Source: Prauserella halophila (lineage in GTDB: Bacteria; Actinomycetota; Actinomycetes; Mycobacteriales; Pseudonocardiaceae). Taken from it: a stretch of DNA of 64,000 bases. The stretch spans positions 99,318 through 163,317 of the forward strand of contig NZ_JAMTCQ010000009.1 in NCBI RefSeq assembly GCF_024171895.1. Direction: 5' to 3'. This document shows, in pieces, positions 59,722 through 61,516 of this stretch. Every line of letters begins with the position of its first letter. The first letter of the stretch is position 1. The notes under the pieces were generated by a model that was not told the origin of the DNA, did no database searches, and was given only the letters and a program-made list of their open reading frames with translations. A program made the position numbers and the translations under genes.

Positions 59722-60189
59722 TCACCGGGGCAGGAGCAGGGCAGTGGCGATGGCGGCGATGCCCTCACCGCGGCCCGTGAGGCCGAGGCCGTCGCTGGTC
59801 GTGCCCGACACGGCGACCGGACCGCCTGCGGCTTCCGAGAGCACCTGTTGCGCCTCGTCCCTGCGAATGCCGATCCGGGGCCGGTTGCCGATGACCTGCA
59901 CGACGGCGTTGCCGACGCCGAAACCGGCGGTCTCGACACGGCGCCGCACCTCCGCGAGCAGCTCCGCGCCGTGAGCATCCGACCAGCGCGGATCCCCGGT
60001 GCCGAACACCGCACCCAGGTCGCCGAGCCCCGCGGCGGACAACAGCGCGTCGCACAGCGCGTGGGAGGCGACGTCGCCGTCCGAGTGGCCCGCACAGCCG
60101 TGGTCGTCCGGCCAGAGCAGTCCGGCCATCCAGCACGGCCTGCCTGCCTCGATCGGGTGGACGTCGACACCTTGGCCGATCCGGGTCAT
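59722..60189 (-). CDS. ispF: 2-C-methyl-D-erythritol 2,4-cyclodiphosphate synthase
   Basis: IspF forms the cyclic diphosphate intermediate of the MEP isoprenoid pathway. The metal ligands in DVHPI (Asp9, His11) and the GHSDGDV motif are intact, as is [16 protein letters not shown] at the C-terminus. At 155 residues it is a normal trimer-forming enzyme. Its ATG overlaps the stop of the ispD homologue by four bases, so the two are translated together although the upstream protein looks catalytically defective. Confidence 0.95.
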
Positions 60190-60995
60190 GGAGTGTTCTC
60201 CGTGCTCAGCAGGGCTTCGACGACGGCGACGTCGAACGGGGTGCGGATACGCATGCCGTGCGGATCGCCGGGGACGGCGTGAGCGCGACCTCCGAGGCGG
60301 GAGAGCAGGTCGGCGGGGCCGGCCGGGGCTCCGCCGGCGGCGAGCAGCTCCCCGAGCGTGTCGGCGCGCACGGCGACAGGGGCCTGTGCGTGGCGCAGCA
60401 GTGACCGGTCGCGGGTGCCGTGGACGACCCCGTCGGTGTCGACGACCTTGACGGTGTCGGCGACGGGTTCGACGGGAACAGCGGCGGGCGCGCCGTCCCG
60501 AACCGTGTCGACGACCGCCGCGACGACGGAGGCCGGGACGAACGCGCGCGTGGCGTCGTGGACCAGCACGACGTCGTCCGGTCCCGGGGCCGCGGTCCGC
60601 AGTGCCGATGCCACGGCTGCGCCGGACGGGACGGCTGGACCGGACGCGGGGCCGGACATCGAAGCGGGACCGGAGGTCGCGTCCCCGGAAGCCGTGTCGT
60701 TGCCGGAGGCCGCGTCGTCGGGAGCCGCGTCGTCGTCGGGAGCCGCGTCCCCGTCAGCCGCGTCGTCGGAGGTTTCGTCGTCGGAAACGACCACGACGCG
60801 GTCCCCGTCGCAGGTCAGAGGGGTGTGGACAGCACGATGCCGTGCCGGTCCCGCCACGACGATCCGGTCCACGCATCCGGAATCGAGCAGGCCGCGCACG
60901 GCATGTGACAACAACGGTTCCCCGTGAACAGGGAGCAACGCGCCGGAGCGCGAAGCATCCCCGTTCCCGAGTGGAACCAGTGCGATGACGTTCAG
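60186..60995 (-). CDS. ispD: Degenerate IspD (CDP-ME synthase) homologue
   Basis: Position (carD-ispD-ispF) and late motifs [10 protein letters not shown] and PVADTVK identify an IspD-type fold. The early signature loop, normally AAG-x-G-x-R followed by PK, is reduced to [19 protein letters not shown], lacking the Lys and several residues. The GG-x-x-R-x-x-SV nucleotide site is replaced by about 45 Asp/Ala/Ser-rich residues (near 65-110). QTPQ is changed to QAPV. Standard catalysis therefore seems unlikely. No ATG, GTG or TTG precedes the first beta strand; CTG at 60995 (269 residues) or ATT at 61016 are candidates, while TTG 60938 would delete the strand. A functional IspD should exist elsewhere. 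Confidence 0.75.
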
Positions 60996-61024: not shown

Positions 61025-61516
61025 CTAGACGACCGCGGTTTCGAGAACCTCGTCGAGCAGCACCTCGGCCTTGCCTTCGTCGGTACTTTCGGCGAGCGCC
61101 AGCTCGCTCACGAGGATCTGCCGCGCCTTGGCCAGCATCCGCTTCTCGCCGGCGGACAAGCCGCGGTCCTTCTCCCGCCGCCAGAGGTCGCGCACCACTT
61201 CGGCCACCTTGTTCACATCGCCGGAGGCGAGTTTCTCGAGGTTGGCCTTGTACCGACGCGACCAGTTGGTCGGTTCGTCGGTGTGGGGAGCGCGCAGCAC
61301 GTCGAAAACGTGATTGAGGCCGTCTTCGCCCACGACGTCACGAACACCGACGATCTCGGCGTTGTCAGCGGGAACGCGAACGGTCAGATCACCCTGCGCG
61401 ACCCTGAGGACGAGGTACTGCTTCTCCTCGCCCTTGATCACGCGAGTCTCAATCGCTTCGATGAGTGCGGCACCGTGGTGCGGGTAGACGACGGTCTCTC
61501 CGACCTTAAAAACCAT
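61025..61516 (-). CDS. carD: CarD-family RNA polymerase-binding regulator
   Basis: CarD binds RNA polymerase beta and stabilises open promoter complexes, mainly at rRNA genes; it is essential in mycobacteria. The 163-residue protein has the N-terminal interaction domain ([20 protein letters not shown]) and a C-terminal helical DNA-binding domain with the conserved Trp in [16 protein letters not shown] at 61516 has GCAGAGGA upstream. A probable -10, TAAGCT, lies at 61544-61549. The ispD homologue follows closely. Confidence 0.97.

Follow-up and report, generated by a model that had tools for sequence, protein, structure and literature searches.

What role is left to an IspD homologue whose nucleotide site is dead? 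The question is raised by a 64,000-nucleotide stretch of DNA from Prauserella halophila (the window), in which three neighboring genes lie on the minus strand: carD (61025..61516), an IspD homologue of 269 residues that we call X (60186..60995, read from a CTG), and an intact ispF (59722..60189; Pfam YgbB, 170.3 bits). An earlier note on this DNA had offered two answers. Either X has gained a new structural role, for example as a partner of IspF, or it is decaying while another IspD serves the MEP pathway. The same note pointed to a genome search for a second ispD, a structure prediction and a comparison of orthologues as ways to decide. All coordinates given below for the window refer to its minus strand.

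X retains the beta-arm of IspD but has lost the nucleotide site

Pfam IspD matches X with 112.5 bits (E = 3.2e-32), hence the resemblance is not due to chance. X has both the fold and the family score of an IspD member, and scores far below the NCBIfam equivalog cut-off for IspD (97.9 vs. 181.3 bits). What remains of the CTP-binding P-loop is a remnant at residues 7–22 (60930..60977). When aligned to E. coli residues 12–30 (VPAAGFGRRMQTECPKQYL), X is four residues shorter, with R20 in the gap and G in place of K27, so the earlier reading of a shortened loop without its catalytic Lys holds. The K213 position is occupied by R. As also described previously, an acidic low-complexity insert (residues 76–124, 60624..60770) stands where GGxxR would be. 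It is encoded by imperfect tandem repeats of 33, 18 and 15 bp (60670–60769), and it varies among congeners, being a short loop in two (G067, G116) and made of different repeats in two others (G033, G120). An initial idea that the insert is important was dropped on these grounds, namely that it is repeat DNA and differs between congeners.

The beta-arm of X (residues 171–203, 60387..60485) is intact. Its D180, T181, K183, T194, D196 and R197 align with D139, T140, K142, T154, D156 and R157 of E. coli IspD. In the predicted structure of X, the arm is modelled as strands (171–177, 181–185, 191–196 and 201–203), and pLDDT is 51–59 over residues 81–120 of the insert.

The earlier note had remarked that no ordinary start codon precedes the first strand, and indeed no in-frame ATG, GTG or TTG was found in X upstream of 60938. 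The most likely start is a CTG (60993..60995), which lies six codons upstream of the V in VP and has an AAGG 10 nt upstream. The equivalent codon is ATG or GTG in all seven canonical sister genes compared, and of 20 further X genes 15 have CTG there. Initiation at the TTG at 60938 was rejected, as the first strand would be lost, whereas the CTG start is conserved. This conservation extends to several genera, and in many cases the CTG sits 5 bases past the carD stop codon. From the CTG, the frame is open throughout and closes in an ATGA (60186..60189) whose four bases also contain the ispF start. An intact frame overlapping ispF was thus correctly described, and the overlap is of the kind expected for translational coupling. 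In genomes where the CTG follows the carD stop so closely, the arrangement suggests that translation is coupled, at a low level, from carD across X into ispF. A scan for promoters and terminators found nothing. This gene order is widespread: an IspD-like frame is flanked by carD and ispF in 71 of 73 loci tested, and the two exceptions (G011, G087) lie on contigs that stop short of carD. ispF itself gave one match per genome in all 120 genomes of the family (Pseudonocardiaceae).

A second IspD homologue has the nucleotide site but not the arm

The genome of the window (5.05 Mb, 99.95% complete) contains dxr, ispG and one ispF, and HMG-CoA reductase was not found in it. Given this, the MEP pathway needs an IspD. 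(Of the 20 genomes searched for HMG-CoA reductase, two have it; both are congeners, G033 and G067, and both also carry MEP genes.) Three IspD-family matches are present: X, a protein encoded outside the window that we call T2 (G000:C1:655786-656475, with a match of 162.8 bits at 655801-656469), and a third protein that reads by eye as GlmU. T2 and X are therefore the candidates, and T2 is the second IspD homologue that the earlier note had suspected. With a score of 174.1, T2 of this genome narrowly misses the IspD equivalog cut-off of 181.3, and it scores 97 against the NCBIfam model for D-ribitol-5-phosphate cytidylyltransferase, for which the cut-off is 166.

In an alignment of family T2 proteins (E. 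coli numbering), G16, G18, R20, K27, D106, R109, T165, T189 and K213 are each kept in 19/19, and the CTP-site residues tabulated are all kept in 19/19 except P26, which is N. What T2 lacks is the beta-arm and its MEP-binding residues: the alignment shows T140 in 0/19 and R157 in 3/19, and the arm motif occurs in 2/94, at the level of shuffled sequences. Consistent with this, 13 of residues 139–155 in the T2 model have a pLDDT below 50, and there is no strand of three or more residues between 136 and 156. We considered T2 as an ordinary IspD, a plain replacement for the resident one, and rejected the idea, since loss of the arm typifies the whole clade (94 T2 proteins by motif). One genome (G381) has three IspD homologues: a T2-clade protein with a degenerate P-loop (L268:4316-5065), a normal T2, and an X at the carD–ispF locus.

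The losses in X and T2 are complementary

To compare residues, we aligned 40 X proteins, 30 canonical IspDs and 19 of the 42 family T2 proteins, using E. coli numbering with the reference checked against 1i52_A. R20, K27, K213 and T189 are kept in 4, 1, 3 and 12 of the 40 X proteins, respectively, and each of them is kept in 30/30 canonical and 19/19 T2 proteins. R109 is kept everywhere (40/40, 30/30 and 19/19). In the arm the pattern is reversed. T140, K142, T154 and R157 are kept in 40/40 X and 30/30 canonical proteins and in 0, 0, 2 and 3 of the 19 T2 proteins, while D156 is kept in 40/40, 29/30 and 1/19. Of 11 invariant columns in X, 6 fall within the 23-position arm (p = 2e-4); T2 has 72 invariant columns, none of them in the arm.

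Similar trends were seen with motifs in a wider set of 94 T2, 86 X and 88 canonical proteins, for which the background in shuffled sequences is 3–5%. The P-loop motif was found in 91/94 T2 and 0/86 X proteins, and the arm motif in 2/94 and 81/86. Canonical proteins had the two motifs in 78/88 and 74/88 cases, the 10 and 14 misses being due in part to the strictness of the patterns. Five X proteins at first lacked the arm motif: four had trimmed segments and were restored with whole frames, and one (L133) has a variant motif. When whole frames were scanned with a less strict pattern, the count rose to 85/86, and the only failure (G206, L314) is a segment that ends within the arm. The motif count for K213 in X (7/86) includes KVT matches in the arm, and the aligned count is 3/40. 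The T189 motif (T2 2/94, X 2/86, canonical 56/88) was poorly designed and was set aside in favor of the aligned column. GGxxR is retained in 12/86 X proteins, meaning that parts of the old site persist in some. In six canonical proteins (L145, L156, L159, L162, L164, L190) the T140 position is Ala and the Arg is retained, which indicates that T140 is not indispensable in every IspD.

Loss of the resident nucleotide site goes with T2

A survey of 120 Pseudonocardiaceae genomes found T2 in 40, and two further congeners bring the number to 42. Of these 42 genomes, 41 have a readable gene in the carD–ispF interval; its P-loop is lost in 40 and intact in one (G052). For genomes free of T2, we read the 30 highest-scoring loci residue by residue, out of about 80 such genomes in the family set, and found the P-loop intact in all 30 and lost in none. 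The association between P-loop loss and presence of T2 is strong (Fisher p = 3e-19, kinship ignored). Excluded from the family count are G087, which has no T2 match and whose gene is cut off by a contig end, and G011, whose X is not readable, and the X count leaves out seven in-family T2 genomes (G202, G221, G265, G351, G357, G361, G374). Put differently, T2 is accompanied by an IspD homologue with an arm in 41/41 readable family genomes, the homologue being X in 40 and an intact IspD in one.

The association can be seen within a single genus (g32), where two genomes (G031, G115) have an IspD of 213–217 bits and no T2 match, and two others (G066, G094) have T2 and a decayed X. In G052, T2 coexists with a canonical IspD that is intact, which shows that a dead partner is not obligatory for T2. 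This genome, along with G094 and G017, in which X is half-decayed, is a candidate for a living intermediate.

T2 and X occur together outside the family

We also searched 298 genomes of an order-level sample, requiring a T2 profile score of at least 185 bits. Outside the family, T2 was found in 32 genomes and X in 32/32, by Pfam search or by reading of the stretch; this count includes G206, whose arm was read in part only, and the co-occurrence counts exclude the incomplete genomes G011 and G391. In the latter, a Ktedonobacterales MAG, T2 is present and no X was found; since ispF begins at the contig edge, whatever precedes it is out of view. The neighbors of the T2 relative in this MAG (L130) look by eye, from their translations, like PTS-type and sugar-metabolism genes, and some T2s may accordingly have another (polyol) substrate.

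The arrangement of the two genes varies. In some outside genomes X lies between carD and ispF, as it does in the window, and T2 is encoded at another place, and three (G125, G138, G159) have carD, X, a reversed T2 and then ispF. In a Mycolicibacterium-type arrangement (Mycolicibacterium iranicum G383, G380 and others), X and T2 are convergent neighbors, and neither carD nor ispF was found nearby in any of eight stretches of 10–11 kb. In Chloroflexota MAGs (L132–L134), X is immediately upstream of T2 on the same strand, and in the Chloroflexota MAG G394 X, T2 and ispF are consecutive on one strand.

The most reduced form of X was found in family f3 (G123, G138, G150, G159, G167), where X comprises only about 115–135 residues around the arm in 5/5 sampled genomes. 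These arm-only genes (L256–L259, L272) were missed by the Pfam IspD search. They lie between carD and T2, and four of the five have MQWxDL near the start.

Two further loci are unusual. In G181 a single open frame (L270:4533-5810) encodes both X and IspF, a probable fusion of a dead IspD with IspF, and T2 is on another contig. G393 has an X–T2 tandem and, in addition, an ispF-adjacent IspD (L323) with a degenerate P-loop but with GGERR, HDGARP, the arm motif and NLKVT, possibly an intermediate.

X appears to derive from resident IspD genes and is under selection

In a tree of 71 of the 94 T2 and 40 of the 88 canonical proteins, T2 forms one side of a branch with support of 100/97, and the Chloroflexota T2s branch first within T2 as the tree is drawn. 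A second tree addressed X. In this tree, in which 64 of 120 inner branches are starred, long branches meet and arm-only rows below 140 aa were left out, 39 of 40 family X proteins sit among the canonical IspDs of the family. The remaining one (G104) groups with X from outside. At least two changes of state are forced, and the best tree has five. Judged from these positions, the family X genes look like former resident IspDs whose active sites were lost in genomes with T2.

We estimated substitution rates for 35 congeneric pairs, which are not independent, drawn from the window's genus, with five of its seven genomes, and from six other genera. dN/dS of X ranges from 0.13 to 0.67 and is below 1 in all 35 pairs from the seven genera, and dN is lower in the arm than in the rest of X in 33/35; the exceptions are one pair in each of two genera, where the arm is not slower than the remainder. 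Within the window's genus, dN is 0.015–0.079 for the X arm, 0.091–0.244 for the rest of X and 0.003–0.035 for ispF. These data indicate that X is constrained, mostly in its arm. A pseudogene would be recognized by a broken frame or by neutral evolution, and X shows neither.

The rates bear directly on the simplest alternative, that X is a decaying relic, with T2 alone working as IspD and X persisting only because its translation feeds into ispF. Several features speak for this explanation: the P-loop, K27 and K213 are gone, the insert derives from repeats, the start is a CTG, the ATGA overlaps ispF, and X evolves faster than ispF. However, besides purifying selection in every pair, the arm residues are invariant in 40/40 X proteins, X arose more than once with the same outcome, and it adjoins T2 without ispF in 8/8 Mycolicibacterium-type stretches. 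Moreover, an IspD homologue with an arm is missing from none of the 41 family and none of the 32 outside genomes that have T2 (G011 and G391 excluded). We consider decay improbable, and of this half of the earlier note only the second IspD homologue stands.

A proposed heteromeric IspD

We propose that T2 and X together make a heteromeric MEP cytidylyltransferase, in which T2 catalyzes and X lends its arm in trans. In our judgment this is the probable explanation. The complementary residue losses, the joint occurrence of X and T2, the selection acting on X, its descent from resident IspDs and the two folds are observed here; that the proteins bind each other, that the arm is lent in trans and that the pair alone is active is inferred from them. 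E. coli IspD structure papers reportedly have T140 and R157 acting across the dimer. Published work describes the IspD arm (137–159) as a hook joining two subunits, with the interface forming the active site and the arm holding the MEP site (PMC11770629, PMC11796317). T140 is described as hydrogen-bonding the erythritol hydroxyls (PMC3111433) and R157 as bonding MEP (PMC11770629), and in one IspD a T141D substitution loses 75% of activity and T141E all of it (PMC3111433).

By the proposed mechanism, T2 would contribute the CTP site and the catalytic Lys and Arg residues, having lost its own arm. X, with the IspD fold but no CTP site of its own, would pair with T2 via its arm, which would reach the CTP-loaded site of T2 and give T140- and R157-like contacts to MEP. 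These contacts are what a second T2 could not supply. Each dimer would have one working active site, that of T2, and only the pair would be active. The vanished arm of T2 would have served the dead site of X, and it follows that neither loss would cost anything. That residues for ligand contact are conserved although X has no nucleotide site is otherwise hard to explain, and it argues that X faces a live site in a partner.

A structural role for X, as raised by the earlier note, is thus the better supported of its two answers, but IspF appears to be the wrong partner. That X acts as a structural partner of IspF would fit the overlap of the two genes at the native locus and their probable fusion in G181. 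Ultracentrifugation is also mentioned as having seen an IspD–IspE–IspF association in E. coli, a controversial result cited in PMC5821942; the same paper reports that no IspD–IspF complex was found for B. subtilis or E. coli. Conservation in X falls in the arm with which IspD dimerizes. Outside the family X often adjoins T2, and in the 8/8 Mycolicibacterium-type stretches it does so without ispF, which points to T2 rather than IspF as the partner. We regard pairing with IspF as very unlikely.

Equally slim, in our estimate, is the chance that X binds T2 mainly to regulate or stabilize it, T2 being basally active alone. Pseudoenzyme activators are known in other enzymes, and T2 keeps the tabulated CTP-site residues (19/19, P26 excepted). 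Against this, the invariant residues of X include T140 and R157, which contact MEP according to PMC3111433 and PMC11770629, respectively, and are not those of a mere scaffold. Finally, it is hardly credible that T2 acts on another polyol phosphate while X serves the MEP pathway with some other partner: the sugar-metabolism neighbors of T2 in G391 and the T2 score just below the IspD cut-off would allow it, but the window's genome has no further IspD-family match besides T2, X and the GlmU-like frame, and in several lineages T2 and X share the interval from carD to ispF, just as in G394 they form a row with ispF.

If the two-part IspD is accepted, its history can be sketched. T2 may be a horizontally mobile half-enzyme, which would arrive armless and borrow the arm of the resident IspD, whose own site would then decay and leave the host locked into a two-gene IspD. 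This would have been repeated in Actinomycetota, with the arm-only X of about 115–135 residues as the extreme. We see the case for this scenario as evenly balanced.

Relation to known systems

A two-part IspD, if true, would be a new way to build an enzyme that has so far been described as a pair of identical subunits. IspD is essential and a heavily studied drug and herbicide target, and several practical consequences would follow. In many actinomycetes, a genome in which T2 as well as X is scored as IspD would have a non-catalytic gene among the two so annotated; expression or complementation with a single gene should fail; and the T2–X interface would be the functional unit. The system would also amount to a repeated natural experiment on how complementary losses turn a homodimer into an obligate heterodimer.

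We know of no pseudoenzyme-activated heterodimer within IspD, and among the open-access literature matches listed, which mostly do not cover subscription papers, there was no two-subunit IspD. IspD is described as a homodimer in published work (PMC3111433, PMC11770629, PMC5099578, PMC11796317, PMC10663253, PMC13001223, PMC5821942), and a 2023 survey calls it evolutionarily rigid (PMC10663253).

X and T2 share the fold and family of canonical IspD, also known as YgbP (PF01128, TIGR00453; E. coli 1I52/1INI, M. tuberculosis 2XWN/3Q80). Mycobacterial IspD is nearest to X, and the IspDs of B. subtilis and others are nearest to T2. The canonical order carD–ispD–ispF is kept at the X locus. The difference is that canonical IspD has the CTP site and the arm on one polypeptide that pairs with itself, whereas in X and T2 they are split between two proteins. 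IspDF fusions link IspD to IspF, as does the single open frame of G181, but their IspD half is catalytic and X has no catalytic residues. TarI (ribitol-5-phosphate cytidylyltransferase) and human ISPD/CRPPA have the same fold as X and T2; unlike that pair, they are single-gene enzymes. The closest parallel in principle is the AdoMet decarboxylase prozyme of trypanosomes, a pseudoenzyme-activated heterodimer in which a dead paralogue is needed by the live one. The enzymes are unrelated, and in f3 X has shrunk to little beyond the element that it would donate.
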